From the IMG/VR virus record IMGVR_UViG_3300006916_000083, positions 1 through 46,289 of that record: 46,289 nucleotides of DNA. One strand, written 5' to 3'. Below the pieces are notes generated by a model. It saw only the letters and a list, made by a program, of their open reading frames with translations, searched no databases and had not been told where the DNA came from. Position numbers and translations under genes: made by a program. Positions 13,714 through 32,837 of the stretch are shown piece after piece (the stretch's first letter is position 1; every line of letters begins with the position of its first letter). The stretch is from a virus.

Positions 13714-13741
13714 TTGACAGGAGGAAAAAGTGTGGTATAAT
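13714..13741 (+). promoter_or_regulatory. Sigma70 promoter, leaderless gene 1
   Basis: TTGACA (13714-13719), 16 bp, extended TGG-TATAAT (13736-13741). The ATG at 13748 begins 6 nt later, so transcription should start at the A of the ATG. Confidence 0.85.
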
Positions 13742-13747
13742 GGGGGC

Positions 13748-13954
13748 ATGAAAAGCATCGTAAACCTCATCTCGCGCATTCAGGGCGCTCGCTTCGCTAA
13801 GGCGTGGGCAAAGGGTCAGACCCCCAAGGCTGACCGTCTCCTGGTTAGCTACTGCTCCTGGCGTCGTCGTCTCCCCGTGATGTCTGACGGTAACCACTGG
13901 GGTAACCATTGGCTGTCCTCCAAAAAGCCCTTCCGGGCTACTCAGGGGCTGTAG
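13748..13954 (+). CDS. Small basic early protein (leaderless)
   Basis: This 68-residue protein starts at 13748, chosen because the -10 box of a near-consensus promoter lies 6 nt upstream. A GTG at 13730 in the same frame would lie before the -10 box and cannot be on the mRNA. The sequence is basic and Trp-rich (FAKAWAKGQTPKADR; YCSWRRRLPVMSDGNHWG; NHWLSSKKPF). No family is recognised. Small basic proteins made from strong early promoters in phages often bind host proteins or nucleic acids, but nothing here shows the target. It is the first gene of the 13.7-18 kb early-type cluster. Confidence 0.6.
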   Translation: MKSIVNLISRIQGARFAKAWAKGQTPKADRLLVSYCSWRRRLPVMSDGNHWGNHWLSSKKPFRATQGL

Positions 13955-13980
13955 GGTCTCTTATTGGGTAGGGGGCTGGG

Positions 13981-14009
13981 CGTAAGTCCGGCTCCCATAA
14001 CCAGTTAGG
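13981..14009 (+). repeat. Element A, copy 1
   Basis: CGTAAGTCCGGCTCCCATAA followed by CCAGTTAGG. It resembles element B (GTAAGTCC, then CCCATAA, then a TTAG end) and lies about 25 nt upstream of B copy 1, with a GCGGC-CAAA-GCCGC hairpin (14018-14031) between. Confidence 0.6.
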
Positions 14010-14033
14010 AGCGAGGCGCGGCCAAAGCCGCAC

Positions 14034-14060
14034 GTAAGTCCTTGTACCATAAGGGTTTAG
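14034..14060 (+). repeat. Element B stem-loop, copy 1
   Basis: GTAAGTCCTT and AAGGGTTTAG flank the loop GTACCAT. The arms pair through A-U, C-G and two G-U contacts. The element is preceded by a GGCCA box and followed 27 nt later by a sigma70 -35 box. Confidence 0.75.
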
Positions 14061-14087
14061 GGAAAAATAAAAAACCCCAAAAAACAC

Positions 14088-14116
14088 TTGACGGTGCTAT
14101 GTTCCCATGTTATAAT
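14088..14116 (+). promoter_or_regulatory. Sigma70 promoter, leaderless gene 2
   Basis: TTGACG (14088-14093), 17 bp, TATAAT (14111-14116), then six bases ATGACC and the ATG at 14123. Confidence 0.85.
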
Positions 14117-14122
14117 ATGACC

Positions 14123-14545
14123 ATGCTACAGTACGCGCTTCTACTCATGCTCCAAGTTCCCGGACAGGATGCCATCCTTCAGAAGGACGGTCAAGCTGCT
14201 GCTGAGGCATTCCAGGATGCTATCGAGGTGAACATTCGCCCGGAGTGTCGGGATATGCTGGCTCCTATTGTCGCTGCTATTCGCTACGCTGAGAATGGAG
14301 GAAAGGGTAAGGAATACGGTATCCTTCATCCTCGCGTGAAGCCTACCTATCGCTCGCAAGCTGGTTGGTGTGCTGCTACTGTTCAGAAAAACTATGACCG
14401 TTGGGTCAAGGCTGGTAGCAAGGGTGAGTTTATCGTGTTCCTCGGGAATCGCTACTGTCCCGTTGGTGCTGAGAATGACCCTAACGGGCTAAATAAAAAC
14501 TGGACTAAAAATGTCCGCTTTTATGTTGACAAGTTCACTAAGTGA
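14123..14545 (+). CDS. Lysozyme-like protein, putative endolysin
   Basis: The start at 14123 is set by the promoter, 6 nt after TATAAT; an upstream GTG/ATG frame to 14042 is not on the mRNA. The 140-residue protein begins with a hydrophobic MLQYALLLMLQVPGQDAIL, which may be a short signal or anchor. The core IVAAIRYAENGGKGKEYGIL (about 55-74), YRSQAGWCAATVQKNYDRW, FIVFLGNRYCPVGAENDP and GLNKNWTKNV matches a lysozyme-like group seen in many phages and prophages, with Glu in AENG as the likely catalytic acid. It would cleave peptidoglycan. An early-type promoter for an endolysin is unusual. The -35 of the next promoter lies inside its last codons. Confidence 0.65.
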   Translation: MLQYALLLMLQVPGQDAILQKDGQAAAEAFQDAIEVNIRPECRDMLAPIVAAIRYAENGGKGKEYGILHPRVKPTYRSQAGWCAATVQKNYDRWVKAGSKGEFIVFLGNRYCPVGAENDPNGLNKNWTKNVRFYVDKFTK

Positions 14546-14554
14546 TGGTATAAT
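14526..14554 (+). promoter_or_regulatory. Sigma70 promoter, leaderless gene 3
   Basis: TTGACA (14526-14531) is read from the final GTT GAC AAG codons of the lysozyme-like gene. A 17-bp spacer leads to TGG-TATAAT (14549-14554), and the ATG at 14561 follows 6 nt later. Confidence 0.85.
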
Positions 14555-14560
14555 AGGGGC

Positions 14561-14719
14561 ATGAAAAACGAAGAGAAAAAGCACATCACCTGGAAGAACG
14601 GCTTCCTCACTCTGTCTGCTCTGGTCTTCTCTGACGCTATCGCGAATGTGTTTCTCGCGGTCTCTCGCGTCTTCCTGACCATCTCGGACATCTTCCGCTC
14701 CGTCCCCGAAATCTTCTAG
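14561..14719 (+). CDS. Small membrane-associated early protein (leaderless)
   Basis: This 52-residue protein begins MKNEEKKHITWKNGFLTLSA and continues with a largely hydrophobic stretch (FLTLSALVFSDAIANVFLAV, then FLTISDIF). It probably contains one amphipathic or membrane-spanning helix. The start is fixed by a consensus promoter 6 nt upstream. Codon use is GC-rich and regular, as in its neighbours, which supports a real gene. Lying directly after a lysozyme-like gene, it could be a holin or lysis helper, but only the hydrophobicity and position argue for this. The next gene starts 3 nt after its stop. Confidence 0.65.
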   Translation: MKNEEKKHITWKNGFLTLSALVFSDAIANVFLAVSRVFLTISDIFRSVPEIF

Positions 14720-14722
14720 ACT

Positions 14723-15100
14723 ATGGAAGACACCCTGAAATATTGGCTCGGTGATGTCGAACAGGCGTTCAAAGAGTTAGACCTTACGCCCGTGTTCGGC
14801 TTCCAGGGCTTACACGCCAAGGTTGGAAAGTATACCGTATCGTGCCAATGGCACACTGGGGTACACTGCGATAACTATATGGCAGAGTACCCTAAGGAGT
14901 TCTGTAACGACTTCGAACTGGGTATTTGGGAAACCAACTCGGGCAAGTGGATGCCGCTACACCCCGATAGCGTCTACGGAGATTCGCAAGTTATCGGCTA
15001 TGTTGAGTGGAATAAACTCGTTCCTATTCTCTGCGTCGTTCTCAACGCGCACTTGTACGACAAGCCTGAGCTTATGCGTACGATTGGGACCTGGGTGTAA
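14723..15100 (+). CDS. Uncharacterised early protein
   Basis: This 125-residue protein has an ATG 3 nt after the stop of the preceding gene and no promoter or ribosome binding site of its own, so re-initiation on the leaderless transcript is likely. It is rich in Trp, Tyr and Cys (CQWHTGVHCDNYMAEYPKEF, then CNDFELGIWETNSGKWMPLH) and looks like a compact globular domain. His and Cys residues could bind metal, but no known motif is evident. No family is recognised. Its TAA stop is the TAA inside element A copy 2. Confidence 0.7.
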   Translation: MEDTLKYWLGDVEQAFKELDLTPVFGFQGLHAKVGKYTVSCQWHTGVHCDNYMAEYPKEFCNDFELGIWETNSGKWMPLHPDSVYGDSQVIGYVEWNKLVPILCVVLNAHLYDKPELMRTIGTWV

Positions 15101-15124
15101 GTCCGGCTCTCATAACCACTTAGG
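15097..15124 (+). repeat. Element A, copy 2
   Basis: GTAAGTCCGGCTCTCATAAC then CACTTAGG. TAAGT pairs with ACTTA, and GG with CC after a CC bulge. The element starts in the last codons of the preceding gene and supplies its TAA stop. Confidence 0.65.
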
Positions 15125-15148
15125 CGCGGGGCGCGGCCAAAAGCGCAC

Positions 15149-15175
15149 GTAAGTGCTTGTCCCATAAGGACTTAC
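15149..15175 (+). repeat. Element B stem-loop, copy 2
   Basis: GTAAGTGCTT and AAGGACTTAC flank the loop GTCCCAT. Relative to other copies both sides of the outer stem have changed (G-C for C-G, and G-C/T-A for the G-U pairs), so pairing is kept. A GGCCA box lies upstream and a promoter 19 nt downstream. Confidence 0.8.
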
Positions 15176-15194
15176 ACGATTTCCAAAAAAGTTC

Positions 15195-15222
15195 TTGACA
15201 GGGCAAGCCGCTATGGTATAAT
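15195..15222 (+). promoter_or_regulatory. Sigma70 promoter, leaderless gene 4
   Basis: TTGACA (15195-15200), 16 bp, TGG-TATAAT (15217-15222), then six bases and the ATG at 15229. The spacer CAAGCCGCTATGG is almost the same as at 16938-16965, pointing to duplication of the promoter cassette. Confidence 0.85.
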
Positions 15223-15228
15223 AAGGAC

Positions 15229-15477
15229 ATGGAAAACAGCAATGCCTACCTTCAAGTCCAAGATGTTTGGATTCTGCGTAAGCCCCAGAACGGGCGTTAT
15301 CACTTCTCCCACAAGGGATGCCCGAACACGGTCGGACTCGCTCCGAAGACTGTCGGAGGGGATACCCTGGAAGACCTCACTAGCTGGGTCGAGAATAACT
15401 ATTCCGATGCGCTGGCTCGTGCTAAGTCTGCGGACTTCTCCATTCCGCAGTGGTACATCGAGAACTGCAAACTCTAG
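15229..15477 (+). CDS. Uncharacterised early protein (leaderless)
   Basis: This 82-residue protein has its start fixed by the promoter 6 nt upstream. It begins MENSNAYLQVQDVWILRKPQ and has one Cys-Pro (HKGCPNTVG) and a C-terminal acidic/aromatic region (ADFSIPQWYIENCKL). The pattern of short strands followed by a helix (LEDLTSWVENNYSDALARAK) suggests a small alpha/beta domain. No family is recognised. An overlapping frame from 15242 of similar length is a shadow. The next promoter begins 9 nt after its stop. Confidence 0.65.
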   Translation: MENSNAYLQVQDVWILRKPQNGRYHFSHKGCPNTVGLAPKTVGGDTLEDLTSWVENNYSDALARAKSADFSIPQWYIENCKL

Positions 15478-15486
15478 AGTTTTTGC

Positions 15487-15515
15487 TTGACCTACCCTCT
15501 GCGCTCTGCTACAAT
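15487..15515 (+). promoter_or_regulatory. Sigma70 promoter, leaderless gene 5
   Basis: TTGACC (15487-15492), 17 bp, TGC-TACAAT (15510-15515), then seven bases and the ATG at 15523. Confidence 0.75.
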
Positions 15516-15522
15516 GGAACAC

Positions 15523-15720
15523 ATGAACGATAAGAAAGCTCCCGATAGCGGCGTTGTCGTCTGCCCTCAGTGCGACAAAAATACCCCAGAGCATTACATG
15601 ATTTGGAACGGGGAAAAGAATACCGTCTGCCTTTGGTGCGACGAAGCCCTAGAAAACCTTTACGGGTTTGAAGATGATAACGACCCGAACCCTTACCACG
15701 GAACCTACTCGGAGGAGTAA
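15523..15720 (+). CDS. Small zinc-ribbon early protein (leaderless)
   Basis: This 65-residue protein starts 7 nt after TACAAT. It has CPQC (14-17) and CLWC (36-39) around a 18-residue loop, a zinc-ribbon arrangement, then an acidic tail (FEDDNDPNPYHGTYSEE). Such a protein may bind nucleic acid or a host partner such as RNA polymerase, but the sequence does not say which. The following zinc-finger gene is 2 nt away and has a ribosome binding site formed by the end of this gene, so the two form an operon. Confidence 0.75.
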   Translation: MNDKKAPDSGVVVCPQCDKNTPEHYMIWNGEKNTVCLWCDEALENLYGFEDDNDPNPYHGTYSEE

Positions 15721-15722
15721 AA

Positions 15723-15989
15723 ATGCCACTTCCGCCTGACCTCTCTAAGCCTCTCTTTGCTCTGTTCCCTGACGCGGCTGACGCTGTGATTCGTGGGGAG
15801 TGCATCCCCTGCGGTAGCACCAAAATCCGAGACTGCGACTTCCGAGATGAAATCTCCAAGCGGGAATACAGCGTCTCGGGAATGTGCCAAGCCTGCCAAG
15901 ACGAAGTCTTCCAATCCGAATCGGAAGCCGAGCAAGGCGAGGATTGGCAGGATGACTGGAATAACCCCGCAAGTCGCTGGCACTATTGA
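15723..15989 (+). CDS. Zinc-finger protein common in phages
   Basis: This 88-residue protein has CIPC (about 27-30) and CQAC (about 54-57), with the segment FRDEISKREYSVSGMCQACQ between and after. That segment is recurrent in small zinc-finger proteins of actinophages and other phages. Asp/Glu/Trp-rich residues fill the C-terminus. It is the one gene in the early cluster with a classic ribosome binding site (GAGGAG, 6 nt upstream), which makes sense because it is internal to a bicistronic mRNA. Its function is unknown. Confidence 0.8.
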   Translation: MPLPPDLSKPLFALFPDAADAVIRGECIPCGSTKIRDCDFRDEISKREYSVSGMCQACQDEVFQSESEAEQGEDWQDDWNNPASRWHY

Positions 15990-16007
15990 AGGTGTAACTG
16001 TTTTTCG

Positions 16008-16037
16008 CGTAAGTCCCTAGCCCGTATTGGGTTAGGG
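16008..16037 (+). repeat. Element A, copy 3, with strong hairpin
   Basis: It starts CGTAAGT as in copies 1 and 2, then CCCTAGCCC (16015-16023) pairs with GGGTTAGGG (16029-16037) in a 9-bp stem with one G-U and a 5-nt loop. Confidence 0.65.
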
Positions 16038-16060
16038 CGGCGGCGCGGCCACCACGGACC

Positions 16061-16087
16061 CTAAGTCCTTGTCCCATAAGGGTTTAG
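16061..16087 (+). repeat. Element B stem-loop, copy 3
   Basis: CTAAGTCCTT and AAGGGTTTAG flank GTCCCAT. This is close to the consensus of all copies. It is preceded by GGCCA and followed 18 nt later by TTGACG. Confidence 0.85.
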
Positions 16088-16105
16088 AAAAAGTGTATTT
16101 TTTGC

Positions 16106-16133
16106 TTGACGGGGGAAAAGGATACGGTATAAT
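16106..16133 (+). promoter_or_regulatory. Sigma70 promoter, leaderless gp88-like gene
   Basis: TTGACG (16106-16111), 16 bp, TATAAT (16128-16133), then six bases ATAATC and the ATG at 16140. Confidence 0.85.
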
Positions 16134-16139
16134 ATAATC

Positions 16140-16808
16140 ATGTTCGCAAGCCCGAAACTGTCGAAGACTTCCAAGATGCCCGCTAAGTCCTGGTCCCTTC
16201 CCGCGTGGGAAACCTGTCCCGGTGCGCGTGATGATAACGACAAGCCCGTAGACGCTTGCGAGGGTTGCTATGCTCTCACGGGCGCGTATCAGTTTCCCGG
16301 CACTATCGCAAGCCGAGAGCATAACCTAGCAGACTGGAAGCGTTCCGACTGGGTTTCCGTCATGGTCGCAAGCATGAAACGCGCTAAGTACTTTCGCTGG
16401 TTCGATAGCGGGGACGCTTATTCTGTGGACCTCATCCGCAAGATTCACGAAGTCGTCAAGCTGACGCCTCATGTTCAGCACTGGCTCCCGACCCGTAGCT
16501 ATAAGGTTGCGAAGCTGTGGCAAGCCTTGGAAGCTATCGATGCCGAGCCTAACTGCGTTGTCCGTTGCTCCTCTGATTCTATCGACGGTGAGCGTCTGAG
16601 CGGCTATACTAACGATTCCGTTATTCTGCGCTCCGCCGAGGATTTTATTCCGGAGAAGGGTTATTCCCTCTGTCGCGCATATACTCGCGGTGGAAAGTGT
16701 GGCGACTGTCGCGCTTGCTGGTCTAAGGCTGTGCAGACTGTCGCCTATCCTAAGCATGGCAAGCGGGTAAACCCGAAACAGTTCGAGAAAGACCTTTATG
16801 TCGTCTGA
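16140..16808 (+). CDS. Gp88-family protein (leaderless)
   Basis: This 222-residue protein matches the phage Gene product 88 family of actinophages: LPAWETCPGARD near the N-terminus, then ACEGCYALTGAYQFPGTIAS, a downstream helix, RWFDSGDAYSV, HWLPTRSYK and a late CRAYTRGGKCGDCRACW. The Cys residues near both ends could bind an iron-sulfur cluster or zinc. The family function is not known to me. The start is fixed by the promoter 6 nt upstream. Codon use is GC-rich. A T-free hairpin and element B copy 4 follow. Confidence 0.8.
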   Translation: MFASPKLSKTSKMPAKSWSLPAWETCPGARDDNDKPVDACEGCYALTGAYQFPGTIASREHNLADWKRSDWVSVMVASMKRAKYFRWFDSGDAYSVDLIRKIHEVVKLTPHVQHWLPTRSYKVAKLWQALEAIDAEPNCVVRCSSDSIDGERLSGYTNDSVILRSAEDFIPEKGYSLCRAYTRGGKCGDCRACWSKAVQTVAYPKHGKRVNPKQFEKDLYVV

Positions 16809-16817
16809 ATCCTCGAA

Positions 16818-16840
16818 TAGACCCCAAACTCGGGGGTCTA
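16818..16840 (+). terminator. Hairpin after the gp88-like gene
   Basis: TAGACCCC (16818-16825) pairs exactly with GGGGTCTA (16833-16840) around a 7-nt loop, 10 nt after the stop. There is no T run, so it may stall or process RNA rather than end transcription alone. Confidence 0.55.
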
Positions 16841-16870
16841 GAGGGGGGTAGGCGGGGGCCACCGCGAACC

Positions 16871-16897
16871 CTAAGTCCTTGTCCTATAAGGGTTTAG
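16871..16897 (+). repeat. Element B stem-loop, copy 4
   Basis: CTAAGTCCTT and AAGGGTTTAG flank GTCCTAT. It is followed by GGACTTTTTTT, which would make the hairpin a plausible intrinsic terminator for the upstream transcript. GGCCA lies upstream. Confidence 0.85.
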
Positions 16898-16937
16898 GAC
16901 TTTTTTTGGAAAATAGCAAAAAAAGCCCGGTTGGGAC

Positions 16938-16965
16938 TTGACATGGCGAGCCGCTATGATAAAAT
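16938..16965 (+). promoter_or_regulatory. Sigma70 promoter, leaderless gene 7
   Basis: TTGACA (16938-16943), 16 bp, TGA-TAAAAT (16960-16965), six bases GGGCGC, ATG at 16972. Confidence 0.8.
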
Positions 16966-16971
16966 GGGCGC

Positions 16972-17196
16972 ATGAACAACAACGATACCAACCGCTCGTC
17001 CTGGATTGACCGTCTCACCTTCGACCTTGAGTCCAAGGTTGCGACCATGGAAACCTCGACGGGCTACTCCTACTCCATCGACGGCATGACCCACGAGGGT
17101 TACGAGGACTGGGTCAGCAGCCCGTCTCTCGGTCGCTTCTTCAACGAGTCCGTTCTTGGTAGCTGCACCATTACGCGCACCTCTCCGGTCCTGTAA
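16972..17196 (+). CDS. Small early protein, possibly KTSC-like (leaderless)
   Basis: This 74-residue protein starts 6 nt after TAAAAT. The segment VATMETSTGYSYSIDGM with YEDWVSSPSLGRFFNESVLG resembles the KTSC domain (short strands, then an Ala/Ser-Gly-x-Phe-Asn motif before the C-terminus). KTSC domains are found next to nucleic-acid-acting proteins, but their role is unclear. The match is by eye and weak at the N-terminus. It is a single-gene unit, since the next promoter lies just after its stop. Confidence 0.65.
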   Translation: MNNNDTNRSSWIDRLTFDLESKVATMETSTGYSYSIDGMTHEGYEDWVSSPSLGRFFNESVLGSCTITRTSPVL

Positions 17197-17214
17197 GTTT
17201 TTCCTAGTTTCTTC

Positions 17215-17242
17215 TTGACTTCTCGTAACTCTTTGGTAAAAT
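17215..17242 (+). promoter_or_regulatory. Sigma70 promoter, leaderless gene 8
   Basis: TTGACT (17215-17220), 16 bp, TGG-TAAAAT (17237-17242), six bases AGACTC, ATG at 17249. No element B precedes this promoter. Confidence 0.75.
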
Positions 17243-17248
17243 AGACTC

Positions 17249-17596
17249 ATGACTAAGCATCGTCCAATCGAAGAACGACTCGCTGCTCTCCAGCAGCAGA
17301 TGGAAGCCCTCCAAGTGAAGGCGAGCGCCAAAGCTCTGGCGAATAACCCCGAGGTGCAGGACATCGATTCCCGCATCAAGGTGCTGAACGCGAACGCGCT
17401 GAAGTATAAGCGTTGGTCGAAGGAAGCCGCTGAGAAGGTGGCGAACTTCAAAACTCGCGCTGACGAGTGGGGTGTCCGTGGGCGTGAAGCCGACGAGTAC
17501 CTCGCTCAGTATAACACCGAACTGAAGGCACTGCGCGACGAGCGCGTTGCTATCCTGAAGAACCTTGCGGCGGAGGATGCCGAAGCCCAGGCGTAA
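17249..17596 (+). CDS. Coiled-coil early protein (leaderless)
   Basis: This 115-residue protein is almost entirely helical and charged. Heptad-like repeats run from RLAALQQQMEALQVKASAKA through IKVLNANALKYKRWSKEAAE to YLAQYNTELKALRDERVAIL, so a long coiled coil or helical hairpin is expected. There are no Cys residues, membrane segments or catalytic motifs. It is probably a dimer that acts as an adaptor or inhibitor, which is inference. An intrinsic terminator follows 18 nt after its stop. Confidence 0.75.
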   Translation: MTKHRPIEERLAALQQQMEALQVKASAKALANNPEVQDIDSRIKVLNANALKYKRWSKEAAEKVANFKTRADEWGVRGREADEYLAQYNTELKALRDERVAILKNLAAEDAEAQA

Positions 17597-17613
17597 CATA
17601 TTCAACTCTCACC

Positions 17614-17642
17614 TGGGCAAGTGAAAAAACTGCCCATTTTTT
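17614..17642 (+). terminator. Rho-independent terminator
   Basis: TGGGCA (17614-17619) and TGCCCA (17631-17636) form a 6-bp stem with an 11-nt loop, followed directly by six T. It ends the coiled-coil gene transcript. Confidence 0.75.
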
Positions 17643-17679
17643 CCTTGACAGGACCGCTGCGCGGGGGCCAACAGCTTCC

Positions 17680-17707
17680 CTAAGTCCTTGTCCCGTAACG
17701 ACTTACG
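17680..17707 (+). repeat. Element B stem-loop, copy 5
   Basis: TAAGTC (17681-17686) pairs with GACTTA (17700-17705) around a segment containing TTGTCCCGTAA. The outer pair has the G-C form, not the G-U form, and GTTTTTCG follows. A promoter begins 18 nt later. Confidence 0.75.
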
Positions 17708-17724
17708 TTTTTCGTGTTTTTCTG

Positions 17725-17753
17725 TTGACAGTATCATTCCGCGCCTGTATAAT
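17725..17753 (+). promoter_or_regulatory. Sigma70 promoter, leaderless gene 9
   Basis: TTGACA (17725-17730), 17 bp, TATAAT (17748-17753), seven bases AGGGACA, ATG at 17761. Confidence 0.85.
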
Positions 17754-17760
17754 AGGGACA

Positions 17761-18027
17761 ATGACGAAAAAGATTCACCTCCCTAGCAAGCTCTCCCGCA
17801 TTCTCTGCGCCATCGAGGATGAGCGTCGTGGTCTCGACTCCGAAGCGTACACGGACGCCTGCGTGGACTACAGCGCTCACGGGCTGGACATGCCCGATTC
17901 CCTCGCCGAATACCACATTCGCTCCCTGGAAAAGCGATTTCCTGTCGAGGAAATGCTCGACTGGCAGAACGAGCGCATGTATAACGCTCAGTTCGACCAT
18001 CAGTCCCTCTACGACGATAGGGGGTAG
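17761..18027 (+). CDS. Uncharacterised early protein (leaderless)
   Basis: This 88-residue protein has its start fixed by the promoter 7 nt upstream; an in-frame TTG at 17725 is in the -35 box. It begins with a basic segment (MTKKIHLPSKLSRILCAIED), then DACVDYSAHGLDMPDSLAEY and a helical, acidic C-terminus (EEMLDWQNERMYNAQFDHQS). It is probably all-helical. No family is recognised. It is the last gene of the rightward early cluster before the 1.3 kb region without genes. Confidence 0.65.
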   Translation: MTKKIHLPSKLSRILCAIEDERRGLDSEAYTDACVDYSAHGLDMPDSLAEYHIRSLEKRFPVEEMLDWQNERMYNAQFDHQSLYDDRG

Positions 18028-18058
18028 GATGTCGGATTAACCCCGGCCAGCGACAGCC

Positions 18059-18085
18059 CTAAGTTCTTGTCCCATAATAACTTAC
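18059..18085 (+). repeat. Element B stem-loop, copy 6
   Basis: CTAAGTTCTT and AATAACTTAC flank the conserved GTCCCAT loop. TAAGTT pairs with AACTTA as a 6-bp stem with G-U. The GGCCA box is upstream. No promoter follows directly, so this copy is an orphan. Confidence 0.75.
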
Positions 18086-18192
18086 AAATAAAAAAACCCG
18101 CGCAAAAAATAGATGCAAAAATGAAAAGAAAAGAAAATACCCGCCGGTCTTTTTTTATTGCTACCTGCTAGGAGCATATACAAGCGCCGATT

Positions 18193-18219
18193 CTAAGTTC
18201 TTATTTTATAAGGGTTTAC
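18193..18219 (+). repeat. Element B, diverged copy 7
   Basis: CTAAGTTCTT and AAGGGTTTAC flank ATTTTAT, so the loop consensus is lost. A promoter starts 2 nt later. Confidence 0.6.
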
Positions 18220-18221
18220 AC

Positions 18222-18250
18222 TTGACAGGGGGTGTGAAGCATGGTAGAAT
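18222..18250 (+). promoter_or_regulatory. Sigma70-like promoter without a following ORF
   Basis: TTGACA (18222-18227), 17 bp, TGG-TAGAAT (18245-18250). The same layout as the leaderless promoters, but no ATG stands 6-7 nt downstream; ATG at 18251 opens only six codons. Confidence 0.65.
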
Positions 18251-18385: not shown

Positions 18386-18423
18386 ATCTAGTTCCAGATT
18401 TTCTTCTAAGCTCTTTTCTTTTC

Positions 18424-18838
18424 TTGACTTATAGCCGCCTTCTTTTATTATGGGGGCGCTATAGTATGTGGTCAGAAAAATAAATTCTTTTCTCATCCTA
18501 GTATACGGGTCTATTCTACCTTAGGGTATAGGGTTCTATGTAACCTTGACTTATAGCACCCCCTGATAGCATAGGGTATAGGCGTATAGTATAAGGGTAT
18601 AGTACGGGAGTGTATAAGGTAGGTTCTAAGGCTTGACTTATACATACCCTATTGCGCCAATCCCATATATTGTGGTGGTGTTTTATAAATGCCGGGGATT
18701 TGAGAACAAAATTGAATTTTTGCCACTACATATTGTGGTCAAGAAAAAAGGAGCTTGACTTATAACACCTATATGGGGCTGCAATACCAGTTGTAGCTCC
18801 TTTTCTTATTGGAATAGAAGGTTCTACCTTTGACTTAT
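18424..18838 (-). repeat. Five copies of the TTGACTTATA motif (TATAAGTCAA on minus)
   Basis: Copies lie at 18424-18433, 18546-18555, 18633-18642, 18755-18764 and 18829-18838, all in the same direction. Three more occur at 27188, 27218 and 40193 next to minus-strand genes. The motif usually continues with a C-rich ACC. Read on the minus strand it is GGTATAAGTCAAG, a -10-like element. Here no ORF follows it. Confidence 0.7.
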
Positions 18839-18905
18839 ACCACCTATTGAAGTCTTATTGTGTTCTTATTGGGGTCTTATTCAGGTCTTGTTATATGTTT
18901 TTAGG

Positions 18906-25570: not shown

Positions 25571-26395
25571 TTAGCGAGTCTCAAAAATGCCGAGGCTATC
25601 CGCGTACTCGCGGAGAATGTTTGCATCGTTTACAATCGTGCTGGAATCTTGCTCGTACTGAGAAAGAATAGCGTGTTCAAGGATATCCTTGATGGTGAAA
25701 CCACCATCCTGCACAAGAGAAACCACATCAATCAGGGAGCGAGTCGAGATTCGCGTACCGATTTTGCCATTGCCAAAGAGTTTGTGCGAGTAGTCGTACA
25801 TACTGGCGAGCAGATTCAGTTGGCTCTTCTCGTTTTCGGAGAGAGTGTAGCTGTCGTTGATGTAATCGCAGACTTGCTCTCCCGAAATGTACGGAAGGTT
25901 GAAGGTCATAAAGCGGTCCTGCAAAGCACGGTCGAGCGAACGAGTCGCGGAATACTCCATGCCAATGTTGCAGGTAGCCATAAAGCGAACACTCTCGTCC
26001 ACCTTCACGCTACGCTCAGTACCGTCTTTCTCCTCAACAATCACTTCACGGCGATGGTCGAGAATCGGGAACAGAATGTTGAAGGCGTCATCCGAAGCAC
26101 GGGAAAGCTCATCAAGAACAACCAGAGTGTTCGGCTTTTGAATCGCTTTGATGAAGTCGGACATCACGAACTTGGTGTTACCATCTTGCAGTTCAAAGTA
26201 TCCAAGCAGAGAAGTACGAGCATCCTGCGTAGAACCCAGGTTTACCACGGACACATCCATGCCAAGCTCCTTAGCAAGCTCAAAGCAGTAGGTAGTTTTA
26301 CCAGCACCAGTCGCGCCAGTCAGCATCACATTCTTGCCACCCCGAACGAGGGAAGCCATCATCTTGTGTTTGGTTTCGTCGATTACAAAAGACAT
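25571..26395 (-). CDS. MoxR/CobS-like AAA+ ATPase
   Basis: This 274-residue AAA+ ATPase has Walker A GATGAGKT (27-34), Walker B LVVLDELSR (91-99), a sensor-1 ATCNIGMEYSATRSL segment and a RALQDRFMTF box typical of MoxR/CobS. Cyanophages carry cobS homologues of unknown role. Its protein partner set here (HExxH plus VWA) parallels chelatase and MoxR-VWA systems that remodel or metallate proteins. It is the first gene of the block, behind a sigma70 promoter and a 60-nt leader with a GC-rich hairpin. Confidence 0.88.
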   Translation of the reverse strand: MSFVIDETKHKMMASLVRGGKNVMLTGATGAGKTTYCFELAKELGMDVSVVNLGSTQDARTSLLGYFELQDGNTKFVMSDFIKAIQKPNTLVVLDELSRASDDAFNILFPILDHRREVIVEEKDGTERSVKVDESVRFMATCNIGMEYSATRSLDRALQDRFMTFNLPYISGEQVCDYINDSYTLSENEKSQLNLLASMYDYSHKLFGNGKIGTRISTRSLIDVVSLVQDGGFTIKDILEHAILSQYEQDSSTIVNDANILREYADSLGIFETR

Positions 26396-26458: not shown

Positions 26459-26486
26459 ATTGTACCACAGCCCCGGCACAGGTCAA
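26459..26486 (-). promoter_or_regulatory. Sigma70 promoter of the MoxR operon
   Basis: On the minus strand TTGACC (26481-26486), 16 bp, TGG-TACAAT (26459-26464). Unlike the 13.7-18 kb promoters it leaves a leader of about 60 nt. Element B copy 8 is just upstream. Confidence 0.75.
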
Positions 26487-26502: not shown

Positions 26503-26535
26503 CCGCTAACCCCCTATAGGACAAGGAGTTAGCGG
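26503..26535 (-). repeat. Element B stem-loop, copy 8 (minus strand)
   Basis: Minus strand: CCGCTAAC and GTTAGCGG form an exact 8-bp outer stem around TCC-TTGTCCTATA-GGG. The loop TTGTCCTATA matches the plus-strand copies. A G/C-rich segment with GGTCGCCG precedes it, a T-rich run follows, and the MoxR promoter lies 16 nt away. The longer stem (8 outer pairs, all Watson-Crick) supports selection for pairing. Confidence 0.85.
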
Positions 26536-28619: not shown

Positions 28620-31600
28620 CTATGTGTCTCTCAGATTGTTAGAATCCGTGATGATATAGTCGATTGTGGTGTAGTTGTATGCATTGAATGGAGCGGAGGT
28701 CTGAGTAAGCTGAGTTGCCCAGACATCGCATGGTCCATGAAACTGAATCGGCAAATCTAGGGAAAGAAAAAACGGTCCAGTCGCTTTGGCAGTCCACGCG
28801 AGAGAACTTGTTTGGTACGCAGTGGTCCCTTCTCCTGTGTTTCCTGAGACTACAAGTACCGCCGTCTGATTCAGTTTGTCTGTTGCGGCGCTGTTCGCGT
28901 TTGCGGCGGTAATACCAAAGATAGAAAGGGTTTTTCCTGCGGGAACTCCCGAGTTGTGGTTGTATGCTAGGTTATCCCCAGCAGTGCCAGAGAACAAAGG
29001 CATATCGTCTCCTGCGGCTCCGCTAGTATTTACGAACAAAGCCTCTAGAGGAGTATCGCGCTTCAGCGTACCGGGTCGTGAAGCGAAGGTAGAGCCGTAG
29101 GCGCTCCAGGAATACGAGTTCCTTGGAAGCGACGGCAGGAGTGGCAGGGAGGCAGGAGCATCTGGGGGAATAGAGTCCCTCCAGTCTTGCCAGCCGTACC
29201 ACTTATAGTTGCCATCCTGGGGCGATTCTCCGTAATCATCCAGGGTTTCCAGAAGACCCCAAGCCCCCGAGTTCACAGGTTGCCATACGTGAGAGAAGAT
29301 AGACATCATGCCGCTTCCGGTTAAGTCATCCCAGGCATTCATGTACTTCTTATGGAATCCTCTCATGGCGGGGAGTCTGTTAGCGTCTCTGACTACATCC
29401 GAGGTTTGGCTGCCTTGAACAGTTAGGTGCTGTCCACCTTCGTATCCAATGAGGGTAACATCAGTGCTTAGAGCTGCCAGGGCATTTACGTTCTGCTCTA
29501 ATTCACCTCCGCTGTTGAATACAGCAGAACTAAAGTCTACAATCATAGCGTCGTATGCAGCTTGAGCAGTGGTTTCCTCTACGTTATTTCCAACATAAGG
29601 AGCAATGGCGTAATAGTCGGTGTGTTGGACAGCGGTTCCAGAAAGAGAAGTTCCGATGCTAACATCAGTAGTTAGAATATCGTTTACTCTAGCGGAGTTA
29701 GCCGATTGACCAGCGATTACCTTCTTAACCCTATGAGGAGCTTCCGAGAATATTGTATCAAATATAGCAAACACTTCGCAAGACCTAGTAGCGTAGGCTT
29801 GGAGCCAAGCAGTTCCACCAGCAGGAATGCCATATTGCGGTACTAACACATCAGCTAGGTAGTTGTCAGCGGTAAATAGGGGGTTCCAAGTTTCATTACT
29901 GTACTCAATGAATACTCGTAGGTCGCTTCTTAGATTGCCTATGAAAAGGGTAGCTAGACTTGATACGTAATTATCGTCGGCTCTTTGAGGTACGTTAATC
30001 CATGCGTCTGCGCTAACTTGATTGCACATCTCAATTACCCACTCCCAAGGTACTCCCTTTCTTCTTCTCGTAGTAGGAGAGTAGTCGGGGTCATATAGGA
30101 AAGTGTTAACATTACTGTCAGAAGTCAGAGAGCGTTGCTCCCAAGAGGAGACGGTGTTGTTGTTGGTCTGAGTGAAACTCATGAACCTTAGAACTTCAAT
30201 CCCTTCGAGTGTATCCAACCACTTCTGTCTAAACGGTTGCGACACATTGTAGGTTCCCTCATCTGATGCAGCTAATACCTGACAACCACTTACGTAGTTA
30301 AGGGCGGTCATATTTGCGGCGGTAGGTCTGATTCTAAAGTAAAGGTCGTTAGTACCGTTCCAGGTAAACTCAATTCTCTTATTAGCGTTACTGATTTCAG
30401 TACCACCAACAATGAAGATTTGACTAGCTAAGTCTCCACCAAGCGCACCTCCTGAATATGTTAAAACATAGTTTCCAGAAGCATATGAACCTGTTCCTTC
30501 TGTTCTTAGAACATAGTTTAGAATCTGGTCTGTTGTACAGCTTTGTTGCCACCCTGCCGAATCGAAATCCTCAAGGGAGCTAACATGGAATGGACCGCCA
30601 GAGGCATAGGAAATGCTGGGCTGTCTCGATGCCAGAAACATGTCAATGAACGGTTGACCTTCTGAGAAGTCTGTGACTTGGTTAATGTTCAAAGAAATCC
30701 TAGCACCATAGTTAGTTGGAAGCTCAATAAAGGTAATGCTAGGAGCAGTAAGCTCTACGGGTCCAGCCGTCTCCTGGTTAGCTACAACAGTTAGCGTTGC
30801 TGTACCAACCGCGTCGGAAGACATAGTTAAGACCGCAACACCATCACTATTAGTAACAGCAGATGCGATGATGAAGTTACCTAAATCAGTCGAACCCTCA
30901 ACAGTTACGCCGCCAACATTAATTCCATTAGTGTCAACTACGGTAACAGTGATTGATACAGTCTCTTGAGTGCTAGCGGGGATGTAGTTGGTTCTACTGG
31001 CTGTTACAGTGGAAGCCAAGGCATCGATTTTGTCAGCGTTTCCGCCAGCAACACCAGCAAAGTCGATGAACTGAATGTACGATGCCTCTACAGAACCTTC
31101 AGGGTCCGCTCCTAATGTGCTTCTAATTCTCTTTGCTTCAACCGTTGTTAGAGAAGTGGGGATTACAGTTACAAGATGGACGGGCCAAGACTTAGAGTTT
31201 ACAAGGTTGTCACCAACCAGAACGTTCTTAATATTAAAGCTTCTGGCTCCAGCTACAACGGTAACATTTCCATTGGAGGTATATGTTTCATCGACTACAG
31301 TTGAGATGGCAGCCGTAGCAGATAAAGTCCCTCTAGGAAGAAGGTCTTCGTACTCAAATGAAGCTACTCTTTGATTAGAGTTGGTTACAACGTACACCTT
31401 ACCACTAATCTCTAGACCAGCCCAATACGCGGTGGTAGCAATCTTAGACTCGGTGGCAGAATCACTCCCCCCGCTTGGACCTAGGACTACAGGGCGGTCT
31501 ACATGAGTCCAACCAGCGTCGTTAGCTCCTTCGCCCCAAAATCTAGCATAGACAAAGGTGTTCTTTCTGGATACAGGAGTGATATCAACCGTATCCCAAG

Positions 31601-32294
31601 AAGGGTATGCGGCGGTAGATGCTACATCAAGGTCTACTCTCTGAACACTGTAATTGGAGTTGTACTCTACAATATATTCAGTGTCATTCTGTTGAGCGGT
31701 GGTAGCGATGCCGTTACTTCTAATACGGTTTCTTTGGAGGTCTAGTTTGGGAGTCGCTCCGTCCAAGTATGGGAAAACTCTCGTACCCCAGCCTACAGCA
31801 CGGTCCCTAAAGTCAGACCCTGCTGGAATAGTTGTACCTCCATGATAAGGTACGACTTTATCAATATCCGTCCATGCTGCAACCGCAGTAGAGCTTACGG
31901 CGGATACGGAAGCCCCCCAGGAAATATTCTTAACATCAAGAAGGGTGAAGCCATCGGCATCAGCCGCATCAGTACACTCAATAACTTCAATAACGCCTGT
32001 CCAATCGCCCTCAGAAACCTCCCTGGTCAGGATAATCTCATCAGAACCCACAGTTGTCCCCAAATCCCCGGTTCCAAAAGGGTCAGAGGTCACTCTGGCT
32101 AGGTGGGCGGAGGGTTTCCAGCCACCAGTATCGTTATCAGTAAAGGGAGAGTGTCCCCCGTTGGTGATGTTTACATAATAGTTGGGAAGTAGGGCTTGGG
32201 AGGAACCACTAGCATCGACCAACTTTAGCGTGTACGTTAAGCCAGTAAATTCTCCTGCCGGAATCTCATAAATTGTACTTCGAATCGGGACCAT
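28620..32294 (-). CDS. Large tail-fibre-like protein with Ig-like and glycoside-hydrolase-like domains
   Basis: This 1224-residue protein is the longest in the window and almost certainly a receptor-binding or depolymerase fibre. Beta-rich repeats fill residues 1-430. An Ig-like (invasin/Big_1 type) domain, with VSITVTVVDTNGINVGGVTV and NSDGVAVLTMSSDAVGTATL, lies at about 440-515. A region with FIEYSNETWNPLF (Asn-Glu, the acid/base pair in clan A glycosidases), WEWVIEMCNQVSADAWINVP and GLLETLDDYGES resembles GH5-type enzymes. The last 160 residues are duplicated in the next gene upstream. It would bind and cut a host surface glycan. Confidence 0.75.
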   Translation of the reverse strand: MVPIRSTIYEIPAGEFTGLTYTLKLVDASGSSQALLPNYYVNITNGGHSPFTDNDTGGWKPSAHLARVTSDPFGTGDLGTTVGSDEIILTREVSEGDWTGVIEVIECTDAADADGFTLLDVKNISWGASVSAVSSTAVAAWTDIDKVVPYHGGTTIPAGSDFRDRAVGWGTRVFPYLDGATPKLDLQRNRIRSNGIATTAQQNDTEYIVEYNSNYSVQRVDLDVASTAAYPSWDTVDITPVSRKNTFVYARFWGEGANDAGWTHVDRPVVLGPSGGSDSATESKIATTAYWAGLEISGKVYVVTNSNQRVASFEYEDLLPRGTLSATAAISTVVDETYTSNGNVTVVAGARSFNIKNVLVGDNLVNSKSWPVHLVTVIPTSLTTVEAKRIRSTLGADPEGSVEASYIQFIDFAGVAGGNADKIDALASTVTASRTNYIPASTQETVSITVTVVDTNGINVGGVTVEGSTDLGNFIIASAVTNSDGVAVLTMSSDAVGTATLTVVANQETAGPVELTAPSITFIELPTNYGARISLNINQVTDFSEGQPFIDMFLASRQPSISYASGGPFHVSSLEDFDSAGWQQSCTTDQILNYVLRTEGTGSYASGNYVLTYSGGALGGDLASQIFIVGGTEISNANKRIEFTWNGTNDLYFRIRPTAANMTALNYVSGCQVLAASDEGTYNVSQPFRQKWLDTLEGIEVLRFMSFTQTNNNTVSSWEQRSLTSDSNVNTFLYDPDYSPTTRRRKGVPWEWVIEMCNQVSADAWINVPQRADDNYVSSLATLFIGNLRSDLRVFIEYSNETWNPLFTADNYLADVLVPQYGIPAGGTAWLQAYATRSCEVFAIFDTIFSEAPHRVKKVIAGQSANSARVNDILTTDVSIGTSLSGTAVQHTDYYAIAPYVGNNVEETTAQAAYDAMIVDFSSAVFNSGGELEQNVNALAALSTDVTLIGYEGGQHLTVQGSQTSDVVRDANRLPAMRGFHKKYMNAWDDLTGSGMMSIFSHVWQPVNSGAWGLLETLDDYGESPQDGNYKWYGWQDWRDSIPPDAPASLPLLPSLPRNSYSWSAYGSTFASRPGTLKRDTPLEALFVNTSGAAGDDMPLFSGTAGDNLAYNHNSGVPAGKTLSIFGITAANANSAATDKLNQTAVLVVSGNTGEGTTAYQTSSLAWTAKATGPFFLSLDLPIQFHGPCDVWATQLTQTSAPFNAYNYTTIDYIITDSNNLRDT
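28623..29100 (-). repeat. C-terminal fibre domain, copy 1 of the duplication
   Basis: The final 160 codons of the large fibre gene (GSTFASRPGTLKRDTPLEAL onward) are close to identical to 32325-32805, with the same NNLRDT end. Most differences are third-base or conservative. Confidence 0.85.
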
Positions 32295-32321: not shown

Positions 32322-32837
32322 CTATAATGTGTCCCTCAGATTGTTAGAATCCGTGATGACATAGTTGAGTGTGGTGTAGTTGTATGCATTGAATGGAGCG
32401 GAGGTCTGAGTGAGTTGGGTTGCCCAAACATCACACGGTCCATCAAACTGAATCGGCAAATCTAGAGAAAGAAAAAACGGTCCAGTCGCTTTAGCACTCC
32501 ATGACAAAGAACTCGTTTGGTACGCAGTGGTTCCCGCTCCTGTGTTCCCTGAGACTACAAACACCGCCGTTTGATTGGCTTTGTTCGTGCTTGCGCTGTT
32601 CGCGTTTGCGGCGGTAATACCAAAGATAGAAAGGGTTTTTCCTTCGGGAATTCCTCCTTGGTGGTTGTATACAGGATTATCTCCAGCAGTACCAGAGAAC
32701 AAAGGCATATCGGCTCCCGCAGCGCCGCTAGTATTTATAAACAAAGCCTCTAAAGGAGTATCGCGCTTCAGCGCACCGGGTCGTGAAGCGAAGGTGGAGC
32801 CAAAGGAGCTAGAAGAATATGGGTCCACTGGAGCCAT
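32322..32837 (-). CDS. Stand-alone copy of the fibre C-terminal domain
   Basis: This 171-residue protein consists almost only of the domain found at the end of the 1224-residue fibre (GSTFASRPGALKRDTPLEAL, then PLFSGTAGDNPVYNHQGGIP and NAYNYTTLNYVITDSNNLRD). It may form its own trimer or cap, be an attachment tip that exchanges with the fibre, or be a remnant of duplication. Its start overlaps the stop of the 32.8 kb virion gene, so it is translated in the same operon. Confidence 0.8.
   Translation of the reverse strand: MAPVDPYSSSSFGSTFASRPGALKRDTPLEALFINTSGAAGADMPLFSGTAGDNPVYNHQGGIPEGKTLSIFGITAANANSASTNKANQTAVFVVSGNTGAGTTAYQTSSLSWSAKATGPFFLSLDLPIQFDGPCDVWATQLTQTSAPFNAYNYTTLNYVITDSNNLRDTL
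32325..32805 (-). repeat. C-terminal fibre domain, copy 2 of the duplication
   Basis: The same domain as 28623-29100, in the same direction, 3.2 kb apart. Recombination between the copies would delete most of the large fibre gene. Confidence 0.85.

Follow-up and report, generated by a model that had tools for sequence, protein, structure and literature searches.

Paired palindromes in helical register with sigma-70-type promoters in small-gene arrays of uncultured large phages: a putative DNA-binding site

Introduction

A palindromic element with a seven-nucleotide centre recurs between small genes in the IMG/VR virus record IMGVR_UViG_3300006916_000083 (the window, 46,289 nucleotides), and the question it raises is whether it acts as RNA or as DNA. 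The first-pass annotation, in which it was called element B, listed seven plus-strand copies and one minus-strand copy and suggested that it is either structured RNA or a site bound by protein. These copies were all recovered, with TAAG starts at 14035, 15150, 16062, 16872, 17681, 18060, and 18194 on the plus strand, and at 26507-26531 on the minus strand. When the window was searched with the 18-mer TAAGTCCTTGTCCCATAA, allowing up to three mismatches, eight matches were obtained vs. 0.01 expected by chance; the eight include an upstream site at 13983, and the copy at 18194 came from other searches.

Organization of the Unit in the Window

A larger DNA unit contains element B as one of its halves: two 25-bp palindromes, TAAGTCCTT-N7-AAGGACTTA, flank a GC-rich core, and the palindrome usually occurs in such a pair. 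The two palindromes are 52 or 53 bp apart, which corresponds to five helical turns, and the complete unit of 77 or 78 bp comprises dyad sites of the form TAAGTCCTTR-N5-YAAGGACTTA on either side of a GGSSSSCC core. Three of the window copies have their second palindrome exactly 52 bp upstream (13983, 15098, and 16010), a feature that had been overlooked, and the window contains these three full units together with diverged or half units. Full unit 1 (13983-14059, plus strand) is made of site 1 at 13983-14007, a GGCC core at 14020-14023, and site 2 at 14035-14059; the corresponding positions are 15098-15122, 15135-15138, and 15150-15174 in full unit 2 (15098-15174, plus strand), whose first TAA also terminates the ORF 14723-15100, and 16010-16034, 16047-16050, and 16062-16086 in full unit 3 (16010-16086, plus strand).

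Site 1 is strongly diverged in a further plus-strand unit at 16818-16896 (TAGACCCCAAACTCGGGGGTCTA, 16818-16840, recognized by eye), which has its GGCC core at 16857-16860 and site 2 at 16872-16896. Two plus-strand half units consist of a GGCC core and a single palindrome, at 17666-17705 (palindrome 17681-17705) and 18045-18084 (palindrome 18060-18084), and a degenerate single palindrome is found at 18194-18218 on the same strand. The minus-strand copy (26507-26531) consists of one palindrome, with a minus-strand promoter and the MoxR/AAA ATPase gene 25571-26395 downstream of it. A GGCCA box, thought to precede every copy, lies 15 nt upstream of six of the eight and is missing from the 18194 and minus-strand copies.

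Distribution Across Phages

The element is widespread in related phages, where hundreds of further copies are present. Queries with the single site revealed neighboring palindromes at 52 bp (16 cases) and 53 bp (26 cases), with at most five at every other distance. A search for the paired pattern returned 85 stretches, and then 367 units with 52/53-bp spacing in 97 IMG/VR loci, vs. none in reversed sequence. Large phage contigs carry 8-23 units, arranged as one contiguous array per contig with few copies elsewhere.

Among isolate phages, no DNA match was found to the region or to a unit, and no units were detected in the scanned stretches of LR756511 and of a Methylophilales phage, or in a Microcystis phage. 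The literal palindrome sequence retrieved only primers and unrelated text from published papers. Hits for the palindrome in genome contigs numbered three, all of them in Spirochaetia. A host origin was considered in Spirochaetota, the phylum sampled, where a perfect copy occurs in just 6 of 296 genomes, once in each; the palindrome is thus no repeat of the host in that phylum. Perfect palindromes that stand outside paired units are not near promoters (6 of 118 sides, background ~4%), so that a lone palindrome may serve a different purpose in such places.

Tests of RNA Structure

A transcript terminator, an anti-terminator, or a processing hairpin would each require the palindrome to act as structured RNA. 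Some observations lean this way: the arms of the eight window copies pair in 88.6% of cells, slightly above the 84.0% of shuffled sets (12/500, a nominal signal), the copy at 16870 qualifies as an intrinsic terminator, and the sequence downstream of units is A/T-rich. The arms had been described as changing together; the nominal signal is gone in the wider family. No arm covariation was found in 212 units, and in 70 site-1 plus 70 site-2 sequences it equaled that of shuffled controls. In a set in which the variable positions 4-7 were not selected for, Watson-Crick pairing of the arms lies significantly below the expectation under independence, by ~3-4 SD. Complementary arm pairs being rarer than independence predicts, the arms thus behave as protein half-sites; in these sequences, one half-site of a palindrome tends to stay consensus. 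The C-G to G-C exchange reported for the outer pair does not hold throughout the window, where that pair is unpaired in four of the eight copies. The argument from compensatory changes, which was plausible from eight copies, collapses with hundreds.

The loop is kept within the window phage, as described, and varies freely between phages, with ~50 different 7-mers, and there is therefore no conserved loop motif. Terminator-like sites are not enriched at units (8 vs. 6.1 expected), and in an Rfam scan of the window tRNAs alone reached gathering scores, the element matching no described RNA family. The 52/53-bp spacing, like the promoter phasing described below, has no RNA rationale. The anti-terminator, the processing site, and the covarying hairpin are not supported, given shuffle-level covariation, arm complementarity below independence, and the absence of terminator enrichment, and a structured RNA is largely refuted and appears very improbable.

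Relation to Promoters and Helical Phasing

That most copies are followed by a promoter was borne out, a sigma-70-like promoter being found downstream of seven of the eight window copies. The -35 box of the promoter at 14088-14116 begins 28 bp past unit 1, upstream of a leaderless gene with its ATG at 14123. The promoters at 15195-15222 (12/12), 20 bp past unit 2, and at 16106-16133, 19 bp past unit 3, precede a gene with its ATG at 15229 and gene 16140-16808 (phrog_1392; GP88-like), respectively. Further plus-strand promoters lie at 16938-16965, 41 bp past the site at 16872 (ATG 16972), and at 17725-17753 (12/12), 19 bp past the site at 17681 (ATG 17761), while that of the minus-strand copy (26459-26486, minus strand) lies 20 bp past its site. 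These offsets of 28, 20, 19, 41, 19, and 20 bp match the phases of the family. Two window copies are exceptions: the copy at 18194 falls outside the common phase, the -35 box of its promoter (18222-18250, plus strand) being just 3 bp downstream, and no downstream promoter was found for that at 18060. Several unit-free promoters of the window (13714, 14526) match the consensus equally well, and the unit is therefore not required for a good promoter.

Across the family, a downstream promoter on the same strand was found for 127 of 202 units, mostly 20-60 bp away, vs. 8 of 202 on the opposite strand and 12-15 of 203 upstream. The -35 box is helically phased with the unit, its distance peaking at 20, 30-31, 41, and 51 bp. 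For 193 non-redundant promoters, R reached ~0.5 at a period of 10-11.5 bp, a value that none of 2000 jittered sets attained, and the phasing persisted when a single promoter was taken from each locus (n = 68, R 0.45, Rayleigh p ~1.3e-6).

A repressor, roadblock, or insulator protein might silence the promoters through loops that join the two sites and RNA polymerase, or might stop read-through coming from the gene before the unit, like phage stoperators: the unit often lies 2-3 bp past the upstream stop codon, it precedes strong promoters that seem to need no activator, and two sites five turns apart would suit a tetramer. A pure roadblock would not be expected to show helical phasing with the downstream promoter, however, and overlap with the promoter would be commoner for a sole repressor. 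Silencing or blocking of this kind is conceivable, if rather unlikely.

Cassette Arrays and Their Exchange

In the arrays, units stand between small-gene cassettes of largely uniform orientation, upstream of the sigma-70-type promoters, and the unit marks a cassette boundary, since it directly follows the stop codon of the preceding gene. The cassettes of related contigs keep largely the same order, apart from insertions and some permutations, and whole cassettes are gained or lost between contigs. As for the products of the cassettes, PADLOC yielded weak matches only to defence or counter-defence functions.

Cassette arrays of largely uniform orientation, whole-cassette turnover, and a 9-7-9 dyad like a recombinase core would suit a recombination site, either integron-like attC or the core of another site-specific recombinase that moves the cassettes. 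Yet the tyrosine recombinase profile PF00589 scored over its cut-off in none of 37 unit-bearing contigs, which are possibly incomplete, with one weak match; the central 7 bp vary among the cassettes of one phage; and site 1 and site 2 lack attC-like pairing (outer R''-R', inner L''-L'). Site-specific recombination at the units is thereby rendered exceedingly improbable.

Alternatively, the units might be mobile regulatory cassettes similar to those of T4-like phages, selected mainly as homology for gene shuffling, with regulation incidental. The association of a palindrome and a promoter between ORFan genes of a variable block is in keeping with this, as are the insertions and permutations in otherwise syntenic arrays and a relative of 99.4% identity, in which 10 of 46 differences cluster in a single 50-bp bin located at a unit. 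Against it, fast evolution leaves little perfect homology, and the exact spacing and phasing demand a functional constraint beyond homology. Co-inheritance of the unit with the downstream gene was rejected, as both ends are equally conserved; units do not mainly travel with one flank, which speaks against such mobile cassettes. Shuffling as the main selected role is therefore improbable.

A Putative DNA-Binding Site

We favor the view that each copy is a putative double-stranded DNA-binding site, the pairs probably being operators or upstream activating sites that regulate the cassette promoters. With its dyad symmetry, independently varying half-sites, and helical phasing with the promoter, the element appears to have the properties of such an operator. 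The first proposal had left the choice between RNA and protein-bound DNA, and it is the latter branch that the 52/53-bp spacing, the phasing, and the independent half-sites strongly support. From the sequence of the sites, their pairing, spacing, and phasing, the array organization, and the lack of RNA covariation, all directly observed, we infer a protein, its occupancy of the sites, and a positive rather than negative action.

A dimeric DNA-binding protein encoded by the phage or its host would occupy both dyads on one helix face and act on the adjoining sigma-70-type promoter an integral number of turns downstream, the center of site 2 being at roughly -67, -78, -88, or -99. Most probably the unit would serve as an upstream activating site, or as an operator shared by co-regulated promoters, switching the whole block of small-gene cassettes together, and the repetition of the unit may supply homology for the gain and loss of whole cassettes. 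A helix-turn-helix family of 263-281 residues, encoded beside a sigma-like gene in 13 of 15 contigs, was considered as the binder and set aside: it does not occur in the window, had no significant match to a known fold, and could as well be a small terminase subunit.

Host-takeover and counter-defence functions are believed to reside in the rapidly changing blocks of small unknown genes of large phages. The motif bears on the joint regulation of dozens of recently acquired genes by a phage, and it provides a sequence rule that locates this accessory block in genomes of the kind and delimits each cassette. Tentatively, the arrays could represent an integrase-free platform in uncultured large phages, with up to 23 small-gene cassettes in a block of ~10-22 kb. 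Each cassette would be headed by a nucleoprotein site on paired palindromes, in helical register with the cassette promoter; one phage or host protein might time the whole accessory arsenal and the repeats might allow cassette exchange.

Comparison with Known Systems

In integron arrays, small gene cassettes mostly share one orientation and are parted by imperfect palindromic attC sites of ~80 bp. The phage arrays likewise contain many small cassettes, largely in one orientation, separated by imperfect palindromic units of ~80 bp; unlike in integrons, no integrase was found with the units, most cassettes have their own promoter, and site 1 does not pair with site 2. At class I upstream activator sites of the CRP type and at looping operators, dyads lie upstream of the promoter, and their distances from it vary in steps of whole helical turns. 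The dyads of the units are similarly placed at whole-turn steps upstream of the promoter, but there are two per promoter, and to our knowledge the sequence of the unit resembles no known activator or operator site.

In cluster K mycobacteriophages, the ESAS elements are paired 17-nt imperfect inverted repeats with a variable spacer, near the start-associated sequence, SAS (PMC12699233). SAS and ESAS recur between genes as inverted repeats close to gene starts, are numerous in each genome, and have been proposed to be regulators (PMC12699233). The units are like them in these respects and differ in sequence, spacing, and relation to the promoter.

The nearest concept is the promoter/stem-loop cassette of T4, the PeSLs (promoter-early stem-loops) of T4-like myoviruses (Arbiol 2010; Comeau 2014; both cited in PMC4503421), which are described as promoter-terminator motifs. 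The units differ from PeSLs in having two dyads at 52/53 bp, a GC core, and promoter phasing, and in carrying neither a terminator signature nor RNA covariation in sequence tests. They resemble PeSLs in the repetition of an intergenic palindrome with an early-type promoter between small ORFan genes, which in T4-like phages lie in a shuffled region (PMC4503421), and the defining junction of a sigma-70-type promoter with an intergenic palindrome is present in the units, whose promoters match the consensus and may be early.

A Paired Palindromic Unit

The repeated stem-loop described by the first-pass annotation belongs to a paired dyad DNA element whose spacing is fixed; the element is in phase with the neighboring promoter and recurs at cassette boundaries, a cassette being the small gene or genes between successive units. 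Each unit consists of two 25-bp palindromes (site 1 and site 2), 52 or 53 bp apart around a GC-rich core. The 18-mer TAAGTCCTTGTCCCATAA, searched with at most three mismatches, has eight matches in the 46,289-base window, against 0.01 expected. The seven plus-strand copies and single minus-strand copy previously reported were recovered, the former in register by repeat finding and the latter at 26507-26531. A second, imperfect copy, absent from the earlier list, lies exactly 52 bp upstream of three copies (13983, 15098, 16010). The GGCCA box said to precede all copies stands at a constant 15 nt before six, but only those six of the eight have it; it lies at the centre of the 77/78-bp paired unit. 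The window block comprises three full units, one unit whose first site (16818-16840, plus strand, recognized by eye from the sequence) has diverged strongly, and half units, and it is shorter and more degenerate than the arrays of large contigs. Its membership in the family rests on the three full units, all of the 52-bp type, together with the phased half units.

A pattern scan yielded further copies: 75 stretches of IMG/VR viral contigs match TAAGTCCTT-N5..9-AAGGACTTA, with a centre almost always of 7 bases, about 50 different centres and many sequence contexts. In loci retrieved by single-site queries, neighboring sites lie 52 bp (16 cases) or 53 bp (26) apart, and any other distance occurs at most five times. 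The paired pattern was found in 85 stretches by a scan that itself imposes the 52/53-bp spacing. Altogether, 97 loci hold 367 units at this spacing, and the reversed sequences of the same loci hold none. The consensus of 212 non-redundant units, aligned in a common orientation, reads TTGACG TAARTCCTT R-N5-Y AAGGACTTA for the first half, a GC-rich linker centred on GGSSSSCC, and TTTGACG TAAGTCCTT R-N5-Y AACGACTTA CGACAAA, followed by A/T-rich DNA, for the second. Retrieval was biased toward palindromes near the consensus, and the relatives are metagenomic contigs throughout, partly non-independent, an effect limited by a one-per-locus test and redundancy filters. Terminase type differs between the two lineages. 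That the palindrome is a host repeat is unlikely where this is testable, as it is rare in bacterial genomes.

Phasing with Downstream Promoters

A promoter, scored as a sigma-70-like consensus match, follows seven of the eight window copies, in agreement with the first-pass annotation. Among 202 units, 127 have such a promoter downstream on the same strand, mostly some 20-60 bp away; only 8 have one on the other strand, and 12-15 have one upstream. The -35 box starts cluster 20, 30-31, 41, and 51 bp past the unit end (193 non-redundant promoters), with a resultant length of about 0.5 at periods of 10-11.5 bp, a value reached by none of 2000 jittered sets; when each locus contributes a single promoter (n = 68), a Rayleigh test gives a p of about 1.3e-6. 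Offsets in the window are 28, 20, 19, 41, 19, and 20, with a single exception at 3. With a five-turn pair spacing and whole-turn promoter distances, the two dyads keep a constant rotational position relative to RNA polymerase. Some unit-free window promoters equal the unit-linked ones in consensus match.

The commonest -35/-10 spacer after units is 16 bp overall, and many promoters downstream of units in four loci (L118, L120, L149, L176) carry GCCGATA between the two boxes. At nine plus-strand promoters (13714-17763) and one minus-strand promoter (28012) of the window, the ATG lies exactly 6-7 nt past the -10 hexamer; these leaderless genes suggest that the host is proficient in translating leaderless mRNAs. 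The gene-poor stretch 18407-18845 has repeated CTTGACTTATA motifs, possibly another promoter class.

Outside the paired context, the palindrome shows no promoter linkage, and other lineages may therefore use it differently. One locus (L095:4303-4871) has eight perfect copies in 570 bp, without promoter linkage, whose near-constant centre, GCTACAT, occurs in either orientation, a cluster that resembles an origin or partition site. In a separate group with spacings of 26, 36-39, and 50 bp, the palindrome is directly followed by a match to the DnaA box, AAAAGTTATCCACA or a near variant of it (L048:7273, L062:2366, L104:1784, L105:1227).

DNA Site or RNA Fold

The first-pass annotation held that the arms change together and took a structured RNA or a protein-bound element to be likely. 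Pairing in the eight window copies is slightly above shuffles (88.6% vs. 84.0%, 12/500), an excess that fails to generalize to the wider family. At variable arm positions of the 212 units, Watson-Crick pairing is at or below the independent-column value for two hairpins and two long-range pairings; slight positive signals come from one flank pair and from the GC core. In alignments of 70 sites of each kind, the share of paired cells, the pair types, and the covariation score all match the shuffles (77.4 vs. 78.0% paired and 0.114 vs. 0.114 for one kind, observed vs. shuffles; 76.5 vs. 75.7% and 0.089 vs. 0.088 for the other). Because these units had been chosen by palindrome similarity, the test was repeated on units chosen by TAA....TT / AA....TTA only, with positions 4-7 left free, and at all four positions Watson-Crick pairing was about 3-4 SD below expectation. 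RNA base pairing was rejected, given the lack of family-wide covariation and the deficit of such pairs in this unselected set. Drift of one half with the other at consensus is the pattern left by a protein dimer with two half-sites, the opposite of what base pairing in an RNA would leave. Sites resembling intrinsic terminators show no enrichment (8 vs. 6.1 expected).

Arrays and Cassettes

In the pieces of large contigs that were read, units form one contiguous block, with few copies elsewhere. The largest array has 23 units in a 229-kb contig, whose two ends the block spans; others have 21, 20, 18, 17, 17, and 14, typically at one unit per 0.4-2 kb. A unit often begins 2-3 bp after the stop codon of the preceding gene. 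A cassette mostly carries between one and four small ORFs, whose median length is 72 aa, and nearly all the encoded proteins lack a known function, the exceptions being DUF932, GP88, one LexA-like, and one HU-like protein. Cassette order is common to related contigs, with insertions, losses, and some permutations. Site-specific recombination at the units is unlikely: no tyrosine recombinase exceeded the cut-off in 37 contigs, palindrome centres vary within one phage, and attC-like pairing is absent from units.

Between the window and its near-identical relative L022 (99.4%), 10 of 46 differences are concentrated in a single 50-bp bin located at a unit (16850-16899), which suggests a local hot spot of replacement. 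The window also has a 300-bp direct repeat (28622-28921 and 32327-32626; 88% identity, 3.7 kb apart) within a large ORF (28620-32294) and a second ORF (32322-32837).

Possible Mechanism and Relation to Known Elements

A dimeric protein would bind the paired dyads and, once bound, might act on the adjacent promoter. An activating or common co-regulating role is favored because activators usually use upstream phased sites; looping could instead bring about repression. Among helix-turn-helix proteins, a single candidate binder is broadly shared (13 of 15 contigs); its gene lies beside a sigma-like gene, in most contigs near the array. It is not claimed as the binder: one member matches a regulator weakly, the fold search gave no significant match, and there is a weak resemblance to small terminases. 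This gene pair, at L246:7045-8530 with orthologues in 13 contigs, encodes a weak sigma-70 region-2 protein and the candidate itself, a 263-281 aa protein with helix-turn-helix and coiled coil.

Literal-sequence and topic searches of the literature found no description of the motif. As these searches leave most subscription papers uncovered, this speaks only weakly for novelty. The nearest known concept is the promoter-early stem-loop (PeSL) of T4-like phages, as described secondhand in PMC4503421, followed by the repeated ESAS elements of cluster K mycobacteriophages (PMC12699233). In these descriptions, neither element has the pair spacing, GC core, or phasing of the unit.
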